This document shows positions 7,432-54,354 of a stretch of DNA of 64,000 nt, piece by piece. Location of the stretch: positions 4,172,001 through 4,236,000 of the forward strand of contig NZ_CP097269.1 in the NCBI RefSeq assembly GCF_028473645.1, read 5' to 3'. Source of the stretch: Acidovorax sp. GBBC 1281. GTDB taxonomy: Bacteria > Pseudomonadota > Gammaproteobacteria > Burkholderiales > Burkholderiaceae_C. Every line of letters begins with the position of its first letter. Positions within the stretch are counted from its first letter, which is position 1. The notes under the pieces are model-generated. The model was not told the origin of the DNA. It saw nothing but the letters and a program-made list of their open reading frames with translations, and ran no database searches. A program made the translations under genes and the position numbers.

Positions 7432-7476
7432 TGGTAGGGCGTGAGGGACTTGAACCCGCGACCAAAGGATTATGAG
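7432..7476 (-). pseudogene. 3' half of a disrupted tRNA-Ile(CAU); island attachment site (left)
   Basis: Read on the minus strand this is the anticodon-loop 3' side, variable loop, T-arm, acceptor 3' strand and CCA of a tRNA-Ile(CAU). It starts at CTCATAATC and ends ACGCCCTACCA. Upstream of the anticodon (beyond 7476) the sequence no longer resembles a tRNA. The missing 5' half is at 53290-53330: 41 nt there plus 36 nt here rebuild a 77-nt tRNA, and the two pieces share GATTATGAG (7468-7476 and 53290-53298). The T-stem has one C/U mismatch, as expected for a decaying remnant. Confidence 0.88.
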
Positions 7477-8457: not shown

Positions 8458-10023
8458 TCAAGCTGCTTGTCGTTGGTCTTCGGCGTGTCGGCCGATGTTC
8501 CACGGCAGCAACTCGTCGATGCGATTGATCGGATGGTCCGCAATGCGCCCGAGCACATCGCGCAGGTAAGCCTCGGGGTCGAGCCCGTTCAGCTTGGCCG
8601 TCTCCACCAGGCTGTAGATGGCCGCGGCGCGCTCGCCCCCAGCGTCCGAGCCCATGAACATGAAGTTCTTGCGGCCCAGGCTCACGCCGCGCAGCGCGCG
8701 CTCGGCGGCGTTGTTGTCGATCTCGATGCGACCGTCGTCACGGTAGCGCGTCAACGACCGGAGCCGTGTGAGCGTGTAGCCGATGGCGCGTGCGAGTTCC
8801 GACTTGGCACACACCTGCCCGAGCATCCCTCGCAACCAGGCGAACAGTTCCTCGAGCAACGGCCCGGCTCGCGCCTGCCGCTCCCGGCAGCGCTCATCCG
8901 GTGGGCGGCCGCGGATGTCGGATTCGATCGCATACAGCGCACCGATGCGCCGAAGGGCCTGTTCTGCAACCGAGCCCTGCGCCCGCCCCTGGCTCTCGTG
9001 CAGATCCCAGAATGGTCTGCGCGCATGCGCCCAGCACGAAGCCTCGATGACGTTGCCGTTTGCATAGAGCTTGGCGAAGCCGGCATACGCATCGGCCTGC
9101 AACACGCCCTTGAAGTTCTTCAGGTGCGCCTGAGGATGTTCACCCTTGCGGTCGGGCGAGTAACGCAACCACGCCGCGGGCGCGTCTGCACTCGCAGATG
9201 ACCGATCGTCACGCACGTAGACCCAGAGCCGCCCGGTCTTGGTCTTGCCCCGCCCGGGCGAGAGCACCGCCACTGGCGTGTCGTCGGCGTGGAGCTTGGA
9301 GCCCGCCAGCACGTAGCGCCCGAGCGCTGCGACCAGTGGGTGCAAGAGCTTCTCGCTCTGGCCGACCCAGCCAGCCATCGTGGAGCGCTCGATCAGGACG
9401 CCCTCGCGTGCGTAGATCCGGCTCTGGCGGTACAGCGGTTGGTGGTCGCAATACTTGGCGACCAGCACGTGGGCCAGCAGCCCGGGGCCGGCCACGCCGC
9501 GTGCGATGGGCCGGCTGGGCGCTGGCGCCTGGAAGATCGATTCGCACGCCATGCAGGCGAGCTTGGGGCGCACGTGGCGGATCACCTTGAAGCGCGAGGG
9601 CACGTACTCCAGTTGTTCCGAGACGTCCTGGCCGATCTGCCGCAGCCGACCACCACATGCGCTGCAGCCGCAGGCCTGGCCGGCGGCATCGCGCCGCGCA
9701 TCCGATGTCTCGGGCCGGTACACATGGTTCTCCCGCGGCAGGTGTGTGGGCAGGCTGCGGTCGAAGCCTTCGCTGTTGGCCGCTTGCGCCTTCGGTGTCT
9801 TGCCGACCGGTGCGAGTTCATGCAGCGGCAGACCTTCGATCAATGCGATCTGCGGATCGTCCAACTGCTCGCTGGAGGCGCCGAAGCGGGCGCGGACCTG
9901 GCGCAGCAACTGCACCTTGAGCTTGTCGACGAGCAGTTTGAGCAGGGCGACTTCCGCGTCACGGGCCTGCACGACACGCAGCAGCGAGTCGACGGTGTGG
10001 GGTGCGTTGGCGGTGTTCGGCAC
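8458..10023 (-). CDS. tnpC: IS66 transposase TnpC (copy A)
   Basis: A 521-residue DDE transposase of IS66 elements. It has an N-terminal coiled-coil region, a zinc-finger-like [10 protein letters not shown] with a second CMACES pair, the catalytic core ([19 protein letters not shown]) and the C-terminal [26 protein letters not shown] signature. Start is a GTG at 10023. Full length and apparently intact; identical to the copy at 16906-18471. Confidence 0.94.
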
Positions 10024-10100
10024 GCCATCTACTATGCCATCGGACCTACCCGGAATCGACCGCGACCAGCGCGTTCAGAAGACGAATTCTTGAGCCCAGT

Positions 10101-10448
10101 TCAAGCTGCGAGCGCAGGCTGATCTGTGCGCATCGGCATGCGCCAGTCGATGCCTTCGAGCAGCATCGAGAGCTGTGCCGGCGTGAGCGAGACCTTGCCG
10201 CCTTGCGCCTGCGGCCAGACGAATCGGCCGCGCTCCAGGCGCTTGGCCAGCAGAAGCAATCCCTGGCCATCGAACCACAGCACCTTGAGCATGTCGCCGC
10301 GCCGGCCGCGGAAGACGAAGACGTGACCGCAGAAGGGGTTGGCCGCCAGCGCCGTCTGCACCATCGCAGACAGGCCGTTGAAGCCCTTCCTCATGTCGGT
10401 GTGGCCGGCAACGATCCAGACGCGGGTGCTCGTGGGAAGGCCGATCAC
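10101..10448 (-). CDS. tnpB: IS66 accessory protein TnpB (copy A)
   Basis: A 115-residue IS66 Orf2/TnpB protein with the family pattern RVWIVAGHTDMRKGFNGLSAMV, HVFVFRGRRGDMLKVLWFDGQG and LERGRFVWP. The GTG start at 10448 overlaps the tnpA stop (GTGA), typical IS66 coupling. Longer readings of this frame to 10898 are antisense or out-of-frame readings of tnpA. Confidence 0.92.
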   Translation of the reverse strand: MIGLPTSTRVWIVAGHTDMRKGFNGLSAMVQTALAANPFCGHVFVFRGRRGDMLKVLWFDGQGLLLLAKRLERGRFVWPQAQGGKVSLTPAQLSMLLEGIDWRMPMRTDQPALAA

Positions 10449-10846
10449 GCCAGCGCCTTGAGCGTCTGCAGGACATGGCGCACGCTGGCTTCGTCGACTG
10501 CACCGCGCAATCGCACCCTCGCCCCGCCGACATCGATCTCGATGGTCCCGCCAGGCTGACGAGGCGCCGCCGCCGTGGGTGAAGGGCATGGCGCAACCGG
10601 AGCAGCTTCGATGGTGACGGGCAGCAACATCGGCGAGGGCTGCGGCGGCGCTGGCGTCTGGGGCTGCTCTTGCGTGCTCAGGTGCATCCGGCGCCATGCG
10701 AACAGCAGGTTCGAGTTGATGCCGGCCTGCAGCGCGACGGCGGCCACTGACGCGCCGGGCACCAGGCTTCGTGCGACCAGCTCGCGCTTGAACATCGGGC
10801 TGTGCTCGCGCCGACGGCGCTTGCTCGGGGTGTCTTGATCGTTCAT
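10445..10846 (-). CDS. tnpA: IS66 accessory protein TnpA (copy A)
   Basis: A 133-residue IS66 Orf1 protein with an N-terminal helix-turn-helix like transposase orfA proteins (SPMFKRELVARSLVPGASVA, then LLFAWRRMH), a Pro-rich linker and a C-terminal beta-rich tail. First gene of the IS66 tnpABC set. Confidence 0.9.
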   Translation of the reverse strand: MNDQDTPSKRRRREHSPMFKRELVARSLVPGASVAAVALQAGINSNLLFAWRRMHLSTQEQPQTPAPPQPSPMLLPVTIEAAPVAPCPSPTAAAPRQPGGTIEIDVGGARVRLRGAVDEASVRHVLQTLKALA

Positions 10847-10952
10847 TGATGTGCATTAGCGGTTCTTCATGCACACCATCGCAGCGTACATGGACCACCG
10901 ATCCTGCACATCAGCCCTCAGCAAAAACAGAGGGTACTGAGAAGACGCTTAC

Positions 10953-15880: not shown

Positions 15881-16082
15881 TAGATGGCCACTGGCTAGCT
15901 GCAATCACCGCAGTACCTTGAGCTTTGCTTGCAGTTTTGTATGCACTAGACAGAGCTCAGGATGGATCCTACCAACGTAAGCGTCTTCTCAGTACCCTCT
16001 GTTTTTGCTGAGGGCTGATGTGCAGGATCGGTGGTCCATGTACGCTGCGATGGTGTGCATGAAGAACCGCTAATGCACATCA

Positions 16083-16484
16083 ATGAACGATCAAGACACC
16101 CCGAGCAAGCGCCGTCGGCGCGAGCACAGCCCGATGTTCAAGCGCGAGCTGGTCGCACGAAGCCTGGTGCCCGGCGCGTCAGTGGCCGCCGTCGCGCTGC
16201 AGGCCGGCATCAACTCGAACCTGCTGTTCGCATGGCGCCGGATGCACCTGAGCACGCAAGAGCAGCCCCAGACGCCAGCGCCGCCGCAGCCCTCGCCGAT
16301 GTTGCTGCCCGTCACCATCGAAGCTGCTCCGGTTGCGCCATGCCCTTCACCCACGGCGGCGGCGCCTCGTCAGCCTGGCGGGACCATCGAGATCGATGTC
16401 GGCGGGGCGAGGGTGCGATTGCGCGGTGCAGTCGACGAAGCCAGCGTGCGCCATGTCCTGCAGACGCTCAAGGCGCTGGCGTGA
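16083..16484 (+). CDS. tnpA: IS66 accessory protein TnpA (copy B)
   Basis: 133 residues, identical to the copy A protein: N-terminal helix-turn-helix of the transposase-orfA type, Pro-rich linker, C-terminal beta region. The TGA overlaps the tnpB GTG start. Confidence 0.9.
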   Translation: MNDQDTPSKRRRREHSPMFKRELVARSLVPGASVAAVALQAGINSNLLFAWRRMHLSTQEQPQTPAPPQPSPMLLPVTIEAAPVAPCPSPTAAAPRQPGGTIEIDVGGARVRLRGAVDEASVRHVLQTLKALA

Positions 16485-16828
16485 TCGGCCTTCCCACGAG
16501 CACCCGCGTCTGGATCGTTGCCGGCCACACCGACATGAGGAAGGGCTTCAACGGCCTGTCTGCGATGGTGCAGACGGCGCTGGCGGCCAACCCCTTCTGC
16601 GGTCACGTCTTCGTCTTCCGCGGCCGGCGCGGCGACATGCTCAAGGTGCTGTGGTTCGATGGCCAGGGATTGCTTCTGCTGGCCAAGCGCCTGGAGCGCG
16701 GCCGATTCGTCTGGCCGCAGGCGCAAGGCGGCAAGGTCTCGCTCACGCCGGCACAGCTCTCGATGCTGCTCGAAGGCATCGACTGGCGCATGCCGATGCG
16801 CACAGATCAGCCTGCGCTCGCAGCTTGA
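16481..16828 (+). CDS. tnpB: IS66 accessory protein TnpB (copy B)
   Basis: 115 residues, GTG start overlapping the tnpA stop (GTGA at 16481-16484). Family motifs TDMRKGFNGL and FRGRRGDMLKVLWFDGQG are present. Required with TnpA and TnpC for IS66 transposition in studied relatives. Confidence 0.92.
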   Translation: MIGLPTSTRVWIVAGHTDMRKGFNGLSAMVQTALAANPFCGHVFVFRGRRGDMLKVLWFDGQGLLLLAKRLERGRFVWPQAQGGKVSLTPAQLSMLLEGIDWRMPMRTDQPALAA

Positions 16829-16905
16829 ACTGGGCTCAAGAATTCGTCTTCTGAACGCGCTGGTCGCGGTCGATTCCGGGTAGGTCCGATGGCATAGTAG
16901 ATGGC

Positions 16906-18471
16906 GTGCCGAACACCGCCAACGCACCCCACACCGTCGACTCGCTGCTGCGTGTCGTGCAGGCCCGTGACGCGGAAGTCGCCCTGCTCAAACTGCTCGT
17001 CGACAAGCTCAAGGTGCAGTTGCTGCGCCAGGTCCGCGCCCGCTTCGGCGCCTCCAGCGAGCAGTTGGACGATCCGCAGATCGCATTGATCGAAGGTCTG
17101 CCGCTGCATGAACTCGCACCGGTCGGCAAGACACCGAAGGCGCAAGCGGCCAACAGCGAAGGCTTCGACCGCAGCCTGCCCACACACCTGCCGCGGGAGA
17201 ACCATGTGTACCGGCCCGAGACATCGGATGCGCGGCGCGATGCCGCCGGCCAGGCCTGCGGCTGCAGCGCATGTGGTGGTCGGCTGCGGCAGATCGGCCA
17301 GGACGTCTCGGAACAACTGGAGTACGTGCCCTCGCGCTTCAAGGTGATCCGCCACGTGCGCCCCAAGCTCGCCTGCATGGCGTGCGAATCGATCTTCCAG
17401 GCGCCAGCGCCCAGCCGGCCCATCGCACGCGGCGTGGCCGGCCCCGGGCTGCTGGCCCACGTGCTGGTCGCCAAGTATTGCGACCACCAACCGCTGTACC
17501 GCCAGAGCCGGATCTACGCACGCGAGGGCGTCCTGATCGAGCGCTCCACGATGGCTGGCTGGGTCGGCCAGAGCGAGAAGCTCTTGCACCCACTGGTCGC
17601 AGCGCTCGGGCGCTACGTGCTGGCGGGCTCCAAGCTCCACGCCGACGACACGCCAGTGGCGGTGCTCTCGCCCGGGCGGGGCAAGACCAAGACCGGGCGG
17701 CTCTGGGTCTACGTGCGTGACGATCGGTCATCTGCGAGTGCAGACGCGCCCGCGGCGTGGTTGCGTTACTCGCCCGACCGCAAGGGTGAACATCCTCAGG
17801 CGCACCTGAAGAACTTCAAGGGCGTGTTGCAGGCCGATGCGTATGCCGGCTTCGCCAAGCTCTATGCAAACGGCAACGTCATCGAGGCTTCGTGCTGGGC
17901 GCATGCGCGCAGACCATTCTGGGATCTGCACGAGAGCCAGGGGCGGGCGCAGGGCTCGGTTGCAGAACAGGCCCTTCGGCGCATCGGTGCGCTGTATGCG
18001 ATCGAATCCGACATCCGCGGCCGCCCACCGGATGAGCGCTGCCGGGAGCGGCAGGCGCGAGCCGGGCCGTTGCTCGAGGAACTGTTCGCCTGGTTGCGAG
18101 GGATGCTCGGGCAGGTGTGTGCCAAGTCGGAACTCGCACGCGCCATCGGCTACACGCTCACACGGCTCCGGTCGTTGACGCGCTACCGTGACGACGGTCG
18201 CATCGAGATCGACAACAACGCCGCCGAGCGCGCGCTGCGCGGCGTGAGCCTGGGCCGCAAGAACTTCATGTTCATGGGCTCGGACGCTGGGGGCGAGCGC
18301 GCCGCGGCCATCTACAGCCTGGTGGAGACGGCCAAGCTGAACGGGCTCGACCCCGAGGCTTACCTGCGCGATGTGCTCGGGCGCATTGCGGACCATCCGA
18401 TCAATCGCATCGACGAGTTGCTGCCGTGGAACATCGGCCGACACGCCGAAGACCAACGACAAGCAGCTTGA
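16906..18471 (+). CDS. tnpC: IS66 transposase TnpC (copy B)
   Basis: 521 residues, GTG start, same domains as copy A: zinc-finger-like Cys pairs, DDE core and the [20 protein letters not shown] signature. It ends 2 bp before the next ATG, implying one transcript for the whole element. Confidence 0.94.
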
Positions 18472-51273: not shown

Positions 51274-52080
51274 GGCTTTGTTGCACAAAGCGATGCAGCT
51301 CGCTGGTAGTCTGACCAGATGAGTGAAGGCAAGAAGATGCGGACCCGCTACCGCACGACAAACTGGGCACAGTACAACGCGGCATTGAAGGCCCGTGGAT
51401 CGCTGACGATGTGGCTGGATAGGGGGATGCAGTGGCTGGCTGAGCCCAAAGGCAAACGCGGTCGCAACCAAACGTTCTCGGATGCCGCGATCCAGTTCTG
51501 TCTGAGCATCAAGTGCCTGTTTGGTCAGCCCCTTCGCCAAGCGCTTGGCATGGTCCAAAGCCTGCTCAAGCTGGCTGGGGTGAACTGGCCGGTCCCTGAC
51601 TTCAGCACGGTCTGTCGGCGCCAAAAGGATCTGCAAGTCCAACTGAACTACCAGCCGAGGAGCTCACCGCTGCACCTGCTGGTGGACAGCACAGGCATTA
51701 AGTTCCTGGGAGAAGGTGAATGCAAGCGCAAAAGGCACGGGGCCGAATACCGGCGCGAATGGCGTAAGGTTCATTTGGGCATCGATGCTCAGACACTGGA
51801 GATCCGGGCCATCGAGGTCACCAGCAACGCCATTGGAGATGCGCCCATGCTGCCGCAGTTGCTGGCGCAAATGACCAAGATGCACTGCTTCAAGCGCTTG
51901 GGCGAGCGGGTCATGGCACGAACGTTTGAGCGTCAGGTGGTTGAGCTGCATGTCCGAGTTGCGCTGCTGAACCGGTTCAGCCAGCTTGGACGGCCTGAAA
52001 CCGTCGCGGTGGCGGCTGTGGCATGAGTGCGCCTGGGGCTGGGGTCATAACGCGCTCGATTCGGTTTGTGCAACAAAGCC
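51274..52080 (+). mobile_element. IS5-family deletion derivative (807 bp)
   Basis: Both ends carry GGCTTTGTTGCACAAA inverted repeats like the other IS5 copies, but the element is 243 bp shorter than the expected 1050 bp. It is a related but distinct IS from the copy at 21119. No clear target duplication is seen. Its right end truncates the neighbouring ICE-type gene. Confidence 0.85.
51319..52026 (+). pseudogene. IS5 transposase lacking two catalytic residues
   Basis: 235 residues against 316 in the intact relative. The fusion point is LLAQ-MTKMHCFKRL: 81 codons carrying the second Asp (GAYDTR) and the Glu (RRSLVE) of the DDE triad are gone in frame. The first Asp (LLVDSTGIKF) remains. It cannot catalyse transposition, but could be moved in trans. 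Confidence 0.88.
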
Positions 52081-52833
52081 ATCCCAAACACGAAGCCAAA
52101 ACGGCGACATCGACGCAGTGCTGCGTTGGCGTATCACTTCGCTCTTGCGGGGGTCAATTCCGAGACTTGTTCGCATTCGCGTAATCGCCTGTTGAATCAG
52201 CAACATCTGATCGCTTTCAGGCAAATCCAGCCGTACACGAACATACATCTCCTGCGCCGCTTGGTAACGTCGGATAACCTTGGGCGCATTCATGCCGACG
52301 GATGATAGGTCTTCCAGGCTATCAACGACCGCCGACGCGTGAGCCTGGCTCGGTTGAAATAACAGCGTCAAGCTGAGATCATGTGCGCGCGTATCAGGGT
52401 CAGGCAGTGATGCAAGGCCCCAGGCCTTTGTGGCAAACCATGTGCCGTGTACGACCTTCCAGCATCCATCAGCTTGTCTGTCCACGTAGTCGCCCAGCAG
52501 TTCGCCGTCGAGCTGCCGCGGCTCACAATAGTGCTGATGGACGGGAAACGTTCGCCATGCCGGAATTTGGAAATCTTCATCTGTGAGTACCGGACGGCCT
52601 CCAACGAATCCGCGCTGGTCAAGTAAGCCGTAGTGGGCGAGGCGGGTTTGATAAAGCCGGTATCTCGGTGAGCGGCGAATGATCTCCCATGCCAAACGGA
52701 GGTAATCCTGACCGCTCCAAAGGGACTCAGGCTTAAGTGCGGGATATTCATTGGCGCTCTGCCAATTCGCACCCGGGCCACTCTTCCCGTCGAATTCGAG
52801 GGCATCGATAGCGGGGGTGGACGTTGCCAACAT
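52081..52833 (-). pseudogene. ICE-type DUF6499/DUF2285-like protein, C-terminus replaced by IS
   Basis: From ATG 52833 about 250 residues remain. The N-terminal pattern YPALKPESLWSGQDYLRLAWEIIRRSPRYRLYQ resembles DUF6499/DUF2285 regulators found near the ends of Tn4371- and ICE-type elements. The C-terminus reads into the IS5 end at 52080, adding about 12 foreign residues. The ATG is only 9 bp beyond the intron-bearing tRNA. Family assignment is by eye. Confidence 0.55.
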
Positions 52834-52841
52834 TAAAGGAG

Positions 52842-53167
52842 TGGTAGGCCGTGTTGGACTTGAACCAACGACCAAAGGATTCAGGTTTGCGCGAGTTTCC
52901 CCGCTCCCTGGACTATCTCACCGCCCCCAGCCGAACTGGTGGGGCGCCGGGCGCTATTGGGTGGTTATTGGACGACTTCCTCACACCCTAGTCTCTGCAC
53001 CTTCCCGCCTACCGATCTTTCGACCTGTCTTCGGCGGGCTTGGCTCAAGGTTGCCACGGCCTACGCCGACAGGTTTCCTTGAATTCACCCAGTTTTTCCA
53101 ACGAGGATTACTCCCCATGGTCACCATTTGATGAGTCCTCTGCTCTAACCAACTGAGCTAACGGCCC
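52842..53167 (-). tRNA. tRNA-Ile(CAU) interrupted by a group I intron
   Basis: The minus-strand exons are 53167-53131 (GGGCCGTTAGCTCAGTTGG ... GACTCAT) and 52881-52842 (AATCCTTTGGTCGTTGG ... GGCCTACCA). Joined they form a 77-nt tRNA with CAU anticodon, encoded CCA and perfect D-, anticodon- and T-stems; the acceptor stem has one terminal G-U pair. The body matches tRNA-Ile2, whose C34 is modified to lysidine to read AUA, rather than tRNA-Met. It is clearly not a duplicate of the split tRNA-Ile at the island ends: acceptor and T stems differ. It is the only complete tRNA-Ile(CAU) in the window. Confidence 0.93.
52882..53130 (-). ncRNA. Self-splicing group I intron (IC3-like), 249 nt
   Basis: It lies between U and AA of the anticodon loop, directly after CAU, the same position as the Azoarcus tRNA-Ile(CAU) intron. 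Core signatures are present in order: GUGA guide pairing to exon UCAU with a U-G wobble; GGGTGAATTCAAGGAAACCT (P3/P4); TGGCAACCTTGAGCCAAGCC (P5/P4); GGTGCAGAGACTAGGGTG (P7 5' strand); GATAGTCCAGGGAGC (P7 3' side). It ends in a terminal G. No endonuclease ORF, so it should splice but not home. Confidence 0.95.
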
Positions 53168-53289
53168 ACTTCCTTTCACAACTTGCGCCACCGCGCCGGT
53201 AGCAACGCGGTAGCAAATCGCCGAACTCTATGAACGGCAATCTTGGGCGCTCACTCGGCAGCATGTGTCATTAATGCCACAGACCACTT
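53168..53289. other. Right-end island DNA with short repeats
   Basis: 122 bp between the intron-bearing tRNA and the right attachment core. It contains CGGTAGCAACG directly followed by CGGTAGCAAAT (around 53199-53219), possibly integrase arm-binding repeats. No coding frame recognised. Confidence 0.4.
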
Positions 53290-53330
53290 GATTATGAGTC
53301 CTCTGCTCTAACCAACTGAGCTAACGCCCC
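53290..53330 (-). pseudogene. 5' half of a disrupted tRNA-Ile(CAU); island attachment site (right)
   Basis: Minus-strand sequence GGGGCGTTAGCTCAGTTGG through GAGGACTCATAATC: acceptor 5' strand, full D-arm and anticodon-arm 5' side with CAU. After AATC the sequence departs from tRNA. The matching 3' half (acceptor ACGCCCT) is at 7432-7476. The shared core is GATTATGAG. Confidence 0.88.
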
Positions 53331-53349: not shown

Positions 53350-54354
53350 TTACTTGCGGTAACTCAGCGCGTTGGAAACCAGCTTGGATGTGATGTCCAC
53401 GATCTGGATCATCCTGTCGTACGGCATCCGGGTTGGCCCGATGACACCCAGGGTGCCGACGACTTGACCGTCCACTTCATAGGGAGCAGTGACCACCGAA
53501 AGCTCCTTGAACGGGACAATCTGGCTCTCCCCGCCAATGAAGATGCGCACACCATCTGCACGGTTGGAAACATCGAGCAAACGTAGGATTTGCGTCTTCT
53601 GCTCGAACAGGTCGAACGCGCGGCGCAGGTTGCCCATGTCGTTGGAAAAGTCACTGACTGCCAGCAGGTTGCGCTCGCCGGAAATCACCACATTGTCCTG
53701 AGACTCCGCCATCGCTTCGGACCCGACGTTGACAGCCGCCTGCATCAGCGAGCCGATTTCTTCCCGCAGCTGATCCACCTCCGTCTTCAAGCGCTCGCGC
53801 ACCTGGTCCATGTCCATTCCGGAATAGTGGCTGTTCAGGAAATTGGCCGCCTCCACGAGATGCGATTGCGAGTAGTCCACATCGGTGAAGATCACGCGGT
53901 TCTGCACGTCTCCTTCAGGGGAGACGATGATGACCAGAAGCCGCTTTTCGGACAATCTCAAGAATTCGATGTGCCTGAACACCGAGGCACGTCGGGGCGC
54001 CATGACAACGCCCACGAACTGGGACAGGCTGGACAGCAAATGCGCCGCGTTGGCAATCACCTTTTGCGGCTGCTCTGCAGCCAGTTGCGGCGAATACAGC
54101 TGTTCGCGCTGCACTGTCAACATGGTGTCAACGAACAGGCGATACCCTTTGGCCGTCGGAATTCGGCCAGCAGACGTGTGCGGGCTTGCAATCAGTCCGA
54201 TCTCTTCGAGATCGGCCATCACGTTACGGATGGTGGCGGGAGAAAGGTCGAGACCGGACGCGCGCGACAGCGTACGCGAACCCACGGGTTGGCCATCGGC
54301 TATGTAGCGCTCTACGAGCGCCTTCAGCAACAACTTGGCACGGTCATCAAGCAT
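53350..54354 (-). CDS. hrcA: Heat-inducible transcription repressor HrcA
   Basis: 334 residues. The N-terminal winged helix ([20 protein letters not shown], then [33 protein letters not shown]) and the [19 protein letters not shown] segment are diagnostic; a GAF-like C-terminal domain follows. HrcA binds CIRCE operators to repress groESL and dnaK. No CIRCE is visible in the remaining upstream DNA. The prophage-encoded recombinase ends only 9 bp before this start codon, so the original hrcA promoter has been displaced. Confidence 0.96.

Follow-up and report, generated by a model that had tools for sequence, protein, structure and literature searches.

Acidovorax sp. GBBC 1281 carries an island within its gene for tRNA-Ile(CAU), a usually essential tRNA in which lysidine is formed, and the locus raises the question of how the host gets by with this gene split, and why the island brings a second copy of the gene that is itself interrupted by a group I intron. 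We analyzed the locus in a 64-kb window (the whole stretch of DNA studied here, G000:C1:4172001-4236000) of the host genome, which comprises 5.7 Mb in two contigs. The island (positions 7468-53298 of the window, 45.8 kb) splits the tRNA-Ile(CAU) gene, the genome's only intronless copy, at the anticodon loop. The 3′ half of the gene remains in the left flank (7432-7467, minus strand), and the 5′ half, which includes the att core, lies at the right end (53290-53330, minus strand), adjoining hrcA (53350-54354, minus strand; PF01628, 1.5e-66). The att core is a 9-bp sequence, GATTATGAG on the plus strand and CTCATAATC on the tRNA strand, and a core search located two copies in the window, one at the left junction (7468-7476, minus strand) and one at the right junction (53290-53298, minus strand), with the island interior (7477-53289) between them. 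By chance, a mean of 0.13 copies would be expected in the window, and 2 of 100 shuffles contained at least two.

Joining the two host halves in silico gave an intact 77-nt tRNA with anticodon CAU, and both the 5′ half (41 nt) and the 3′ half with the core (45 nt) showed 100% identity to the intact gene of another genome of the same genus (G005). In two island-free genomes of this genus (G007 and G003), the sequences flanking the island lie adjacent to each other around an intact, intronless gene. The first-pass annotation had named an intron-bearing tRNA at this locus in island-free relatives as one observation that would speak against its reading, and no such copy is present in these two genomes. 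The rebuilt gene and the intact genes of the three relatives thus indicate that a 45.8-kb insertion broke the host tRNA gene. The island has in common with tRNA-targeting integrative islands the splitting of a tRNA gene and the direct repeats at its ends. Neither junction holds a whole intronless tRNA, no intact gene was found elsewhere in the genome, and no attP fragment restoring the target tRNA was found. Judged from the DNA sequence, we regard it as established that the host tRNA gene was destroyed and replaced by the island.

A search of the whole genome with the sequence of the 5′ half, allowing up to three mismatches, found it in two places only, namely the split gene and the copy in the island. 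Among 47 tRNA matches in the genome, two were called as CAU, and by sequence these are one initiator-like and one elongator-like tRNA-Met. No further tRNA-Ile(CAU) was found in the genome besides the split gene and the intron-interrupted gene, in a list that is without any tRNA-Ile(GAU) and therefore may be incomplete, for example at the rRNA operons. The earlier suggestion that the island provides a substitute for a broken single-copy gene agrees with this count, and the other finding named there as refuting, further intact intronless genes in this genome and all relatives, was not obtained.

The second, complete tRNA-Ile(CAU) is located at 52842-53167 on the minus strand, 122 bp inside the right end of the island (first estimated as 120 bp). 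Exon 1 (53131-53167) ends in the anticodon CAU, exon 2 (52842-52881) starts with A37 and encodes the CCA end, and a 249-nt group I intron (52882-53130) is inserted between U36 and A37, all on the minus strand. The two exons joined in silico fold into a 77-nt tRNA with anticodon CAU, the acceptor and T stems of which are unlike those of the host gene, as had been noticed from the letters alone. The first-pass annotation had also recognized the intron and its position, and both held up: the intron scored 62.7 bits against RF00028, above the gathering score of 50, and it divides the core CTCATAATC as CTCAT/AATC. With default settings, ARAGORN called no tRNA at the island copy, and called it once the intron was removed. 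In an alignment of 15 introns inserted after U36, the kind found in the window, 31 of the 80 predicted pairs had both partners substituted in one or more sequences, a pattern that fits selection on the RNA structure of the intron, and the U-G pair at the 5′ splice site and the final G of the intron were invariant in all 15. The island intron has a likeness to that of Azoarcus, which occupies the same insertion site, and may belong to the same type (group IC3 subgroup).

Between the island tRNA and the right core lies a 122-bp spacer (53168-53289, minus strand), which may be the P′ arm of attP. It contains two 9-bp direct repeats, TTGCTACCG on the tRNA strand (53208-53216 and 53197-53205). This 9-mer occurred twice in 0 of 20,000 shuffles of the spacer, and any repeated 9-mer was seen in 81 of 5,000. 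The spacer of L185 has three occurrences of the motif TTGCTAC, that of L095 two and that of L106 one, and other spacer repeats, such as CTTACACACCG, recur in Polynucleobacter. A consensus scan found no promoter; the host promoter may read into the island tRNA, since the orientation is the same.

Annotation of the island, based on profile scans of selected proteins rather than every ORF, revealed two IS66-type copies, DDE_3 and DDE_Tnp_1_5 transposases, TonB receptors and two-component systems, together with an EptA-like transferase and RND and ABC transport genes. IS66-type copies at 8458-10898 and 16031-18471 are mirrored around MFS, SDR, and LysR genes, an arrangement reminiscent of a composite transposon. 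Neither Pfam and PHROGs searches of selected ORFs nor tblastn with the integrases of G006, G010, G060, G061, and G062 detected an integrase in the window, and the island's own integrase therefore cannot be named. Directly after the intron-bearing tRNA lies a 276-aa ORF (52045-52875, minus strand) with 31-32% identity to the first gene of three whole elements in other genomes. Its homolog in one of these (G060) gave a weak match to Trans_reg_dom (PF20109, 22.9 bits against a cut-off of 23.8).

The three complete elements are those of Rhodoferax bucti (L185, G060; ~18.9 kb), G061 (L156; ~22.3 kb), and G062 (L123; ~22.7 kb). All have the same order, with the host 5′ half followed by the spacer, the intron-bearing tRNA, the relative of the 276-aa ORF, the next gene (which in G060 matches the replication protein family PF05144), cargo, two integrase frames, and the host 3′ half. 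In G060 these frames (330 and 449 aa) encode tyrosine integrases (PF00589), in G061 and G062 they match the same family, and a tyrosine integrase lies ~200 bp from the far end of each whole element. Cargo varies among the three. PADLOC was run on a set of eight proteins, from which a 1103-aa ORF beside the G061 matches was left out; five gave no match, and the three that did, a type I methyltransferase, the candidate PDC-S05, and a type I specificity subunit, all belong to the G061 element. The tRNA exons are identical in the three elements and the window, whereas the native host halves differ. The window island has the right-end layout and the first gene in common with the whole elements and contains several insertion sequences.

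To examine the prevalence of this arrangement, 84,980 species genomes were scanned for the end of an intron followed by a tRNA-Ile 3′ exon. At least 119 stretches were obtained, among the matches listed mostly from beta-proteobacteria with Polynucleobacter prominent, and some of the stretches listed are intronless tRNAs. A parser given 141 sequences (the window, 133 loci, and seven relatives) returned 95 interrupted genes, of which 89 were left after removal of one false parse (L190) and exact repeats, and 77, including the window, had enough upstream sequence. An orphan or decayed tRNA-Ile(CAU) 5′ half was present within ~600 bp upstream at 34 of these 77 intron loci among the matches listed, compared with none of the 21 distinct genes represented by 24 intronless control loci (three were repeat genomes already counted); the Fisher p value of 4.7e-5, and that of 5.9e-5 obtained without the window and the doubtful locus L173 (32/75), are optimistic because the loci are related. 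At L173, from a Gammaproteobacteria MAG (G326), the upstream piece (743-800) is not a clean half but a 58-nt CAU tRNA without T arm (Rfam, 42.3 bits; fold z-score −2.8), located ~200 bp upstream of the intron-bearing tRNA-Ile(CAU). A stricter test (an 18-nt motif with up to two mismatches, within 1000 bp) identified 27 of the 77 loci, and those found by the looser test alone (L083, L095, L106, L125, L133, L148, and L194) all look decayed. No orphan 5′ half was detectable at 43 of the 77 loci. The junctions are varied, with 18 types among 27 compared, a set that omits further Polynucleobacter loci sharing one type. Other elements that pair an intron-bearing tRNA with the same target, for which the first-pass annotation had proposed a search, are thus represented by the three whole elements and by the loci with an orphan half.

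Several observations were made alongside this survey. A single 2.15-Mb contig of Polynucleobacter sp. MWH-HuK1 holds four intron 3′ ends with a tRNA-Ile exon (L132, L161, L183, and L187), two of which have an orphan 5′ half, so that several elements are present in one genome. A Polynucleobacter-1 RNA (RF01718, 94.3 bits; L110:523-666) shares an 8-kb stretch with an intron tRNA element. An 858-aa gene upstream of many Polynucleobacter loci was considered as topA and rejected, the end of the gene reading, by eye, as rpoD.

The presence of intact copies was examined in 42 intron-bearing genomes picked from the listed stretches, isolates and longer contigs being favored; intact anticodon arms were sought, allowing up to three mismatches. 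All 42 gave arm matches, mostly tRNA-Lys-like, and uninterrupted CAUAAUC arms were found in four (G307, G324, G299, and G326). Those of G324 and G299 are the orphan halves of L124 and L120, that of G326 belongs to the shortened tRNA of L173, and Polynucleobacter brandtiae (G307) has an intact gene plus an intron remnant. An intact intronless arm was thus absent in 40 of the 42 genomes, the exceptions being one intact (G307) and one doubtful (G326) case, in a survey in which genes may be absent from draft assemblies and a tRNA-Ile whose stem differs strongly escapes the pattern.

A sample of 130 genomes from the family, with rows for 81 listed genomes that were counted by hand and in which stems unlike the pattern are missed, included 69 with an intact gene, eight with an orphan 5′ half without an intact copy, and four with tRNA-Lys rows only. 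An orphan 5′ half together with a matching intact gene was found in none of the 81 listed genomes, and hence in none of the eight with an orphan half. A replacement was found in seven of these eight, and in six of the seven it contains an intron. Five have a copy with an intron after U36 (G000, G028, G335, G403, and G406, the last of which is probably the same genome as G061), and G337 has a copy with an intron after U33. The replacement in G411 is intronless, an 88-nt CAU tRNA whose D arm is odd and which has an extra variable arm, located 150 bp downstream of the 5′ half (L256:1008-1095), and its odd shape is perhaps another way to disguise a replacement. For G387, no replacement tRNA was found in 40 kb beside the orphan half or by ARAGORN at all 47 tRNA matches, where CAU occurred only on two tRNA-Met. 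An integrase-like frame, recognized by eye, lies ~200-250 bp downstream of the split 5′ half in this genome (L258). In G335 (L259), the intron tRNA and the orphan 5′ half point in opposite directions and there are two orphan 3′ halves, perhaps reflecting a double insertion.

The common position of the intron is after U36. Introns after U33 occur in Paracidovorax (L117, L204, and L211), G008, G044, and G337, among others, and where tested they score below the RF00028 gathering score of 50 (25.7 bits for G008 and 32.5 bits for G337). Both positions lie within the 7-nt anticodon loop, which is the recombination core. At several Paracidovorax loci (L078 to L082, L117, L204, and L211), ~1.6 kb separate the tRNA with an after-U33 intron from hrcA, and no trace of the native gene was seen; the intron-bearing copy is perhaps an old, domesticated replacement. 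At L098 (Polynucleobacter sinensis), the order is host 5′ half, spacer, second 5′ half, second spacer, and intron copy. The second 5′ half is split at CTCATAA and has upstream sequence typical of element-borne copies. Such an order would be expected if a second element had hit an intronless element-borne tRNA, but it is not decisive, and homologous recombination between tRNA 5′ halves could also have produced it. At L127, a further element appears, by eye, to be joined at CTCATAA following the left end of another element.

We consider the best explanation of the locus, and probably the correct one, to be that the element destroys its target, replaces the tRNA, and uses the intron to mask the replacement from integrases. 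The island would enter by recombination at the anticodon loop, through the core CTCATAATC, of the host's single tRNA-Ile(CAU) gene, and would destroy the target rather than restore it with a gene fragment. The complete foreign tRNA-Ile(CAU) just inside the P′ arm, presumably transcribed from the host promoter, would keep the host alive if the tRNA is essential here as elsewhere. A group I intron after U36, inside the att core, splits the island copy, and its RNA would splice itself out in the cell to yield a normal tRNA, leaving a DNA without a contiguous anticodon-loop site. The element's own spare gene would then be closed to it as a target for integration or recombination, and the carrier cell would be left without an anticodon-loop attB, either for the element itself or for its rivals. 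The first-pass annotation had proposed replacement together with self-immunity; replacement stands, given the sole copy and the empty sites in relatives, and self-immunity is what we infer. The split gene, the empty site in relatives, the only remaining copy found, the varied junctions, and the conserved structure of the intron are all read directly from the sequence. Because related bacteria hold many islands of the same plan, these findings suggest that the intron conceals the replacement gene from integrases. Masking would also account for the many elements with different junctions, the two intron sites that both cut the core, and the lack of a matching intact gene in the eight genomes with an orphan half. 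The broader proposition, that widespread bacterial elements break the only tRNA-Ile(CAU) gene and supply a ribozyme-disguised copy, making themselves hard to lose, self-immune, and exclusive toward rivals for the same site, is one toward which we lean slightly.

Replacement could also have occurred without masking, the intron being a neutral passenger from the donor gene, since group I introns often reside in tRNA anticodon loops; we regard this explanation as rather unlikely but worth weighing. The 347-kb Klebsiella jumbo phage Muenster (Alcyoneusvirus; MT708547.1) carries an unannotated intron-split tRNA-Ile(CAU) in a tRNA cluster (L303:1501-1800), where a group I intron (104.1 bits against RF00028) occupies the same site as in the island tRNA. 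No integrase gene is annotated, and no link to integration is apparent, within the 3.1-kb stretch seen; the intron-bearing gene may therefore predate its use by elements. The query region matched by Muenster is also matched by three further Klebsiella phages. A passenger would further agree with the intronless replacement of G411 and with intron genes that adjoin hrcA without a relic, as at L145 and L162. By contrast, the att core is cut by both intron positions, and group I introns look rare in the background genomes, an exact intron pattern matching at least 3 genomes, the window's own among them, out of 250 from the order (a lower bound, because the pattern is exact), as against six of the seven replacements found in the family sample. 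The G411 copy, the unfound replacement of G387, and the Muenster intron stand against a strict version of self-immunity. The 43 intron loci without a detectable orphan half, the intact gene of G307, the irregular piece at L173, the low scores of the after-U33 introns, and the failure to find an integrase or a promoter likewise speak against masking, which we still prefer as the explanation.

It is very unlikely that the intron guards or controls the tRNA in some other way, such as against anticodon nucleases or through regulated splicing, with the effect on integration as a by-product. Such a function would suit the presence of the intron in a jumbo phage, where the stretch seen shows no role in integration, but the link to split host genes would be left unexplained, and protection from nucleases would be brief because the mature tRNA is identical with or without the intron. 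Least probable of all is a coincidence, in which the intron tRNA has long belonged to the host, as its position directly beside hrcA in some relatives might suggest, and the split gene an unrelated relic of a hot-spot island, and this is already contradicted by the identity of the intron-copy exons among elements though native halves differ, by the lack of an intron copy at the locus in the island-free G007 and G003, and by the comparison with controls (orphan half at 0/21).

The arrangement that we favor, a destroyed target and a masked replacement, differs from that of known integrative islands. As described for the Islander database (PMC4383910), islands restore the split tRNA with a fragment carried in attP. 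They likewise split the tRNA at an att site centered on the anticodon, with a direct repeat of the core, but in the window there is no restoring fragment, and a whole, separate, intron-bearing tRNA gene is supplied. Ordinary islands in two genomes of the same genus (G006 and G010) use the same tRNA gene and the same core, with an integrase adjoining, and unlike the window island they leave an intact intronless tRNA and an orphan 3′ half. An orphan tRNA-Ile(CAU) 3′ half, as expected of an ordinary restoring attP, also lies on plasmid 1 of Polaromonas sp. JS666 (L304:1501-1540).

The closest precedent found is an archaeal element in Caldiarchaeum, where a recombinase-bearing insertion lies between a 5′ fragment of tRNA-Thr(GGU) and a complete intron-containing tRNA; its authors propose that the intron was introduced into the tRNA gene by a mobile element and that this may block further invaders (Sugahara et al. 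2012, PMC3293823). The window shares with it the tRNA fragment and the intron tRNA, and a recombinase is found in the relatives only; the class and site of the intron differ. The archaeal case, as described there, concerns one population and tRNA introns removed by a protein enzyme, with an extra intron at 24/25, whereas here a group I ribozyme lies in the att core, an independent tRNA gene is inside the element, and many bacterial elements are involved. The protective tRNA disruption hypothesis of Randau and Söll, as cited in PMC4390854, holds that disrupted tRNA genes shield against integrating elements. There the host is shielded, and here the element itself bears the shielded gene. The pre-tRNA-Ile of Azoarcus, the same tRNA, also has a group I intron, which was studied as a ribozyme with no link to integration in the main text of a review of bacterial group I introns, where neither "integrase" nor "genomic island" appears (PMC3984707). 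No bacterial precedent for the arrangement was found in the open-access PMC library, judged by titles and the opening lines of abstracts and short of preprints and most subscription journals.

Intron-bearing tRNA genes are easily missed, as the default ARAGORN run on the window illustrates. If the proposed mechanism is true, a group I intron would gain a selectable job, that of hiding the DNA of a gene from a site-specific recombinase while leaving its RNA intact, and the old idea of tRNA introns as guards against integration becomes directly testable in bacteria. Capture of a single-copy and likely essential tRNA would then constitute a new route to element addiction, and the mechanism would explain the anticodon-loop introns of tRNA-Ile(CAU) in many Burkholderiales.
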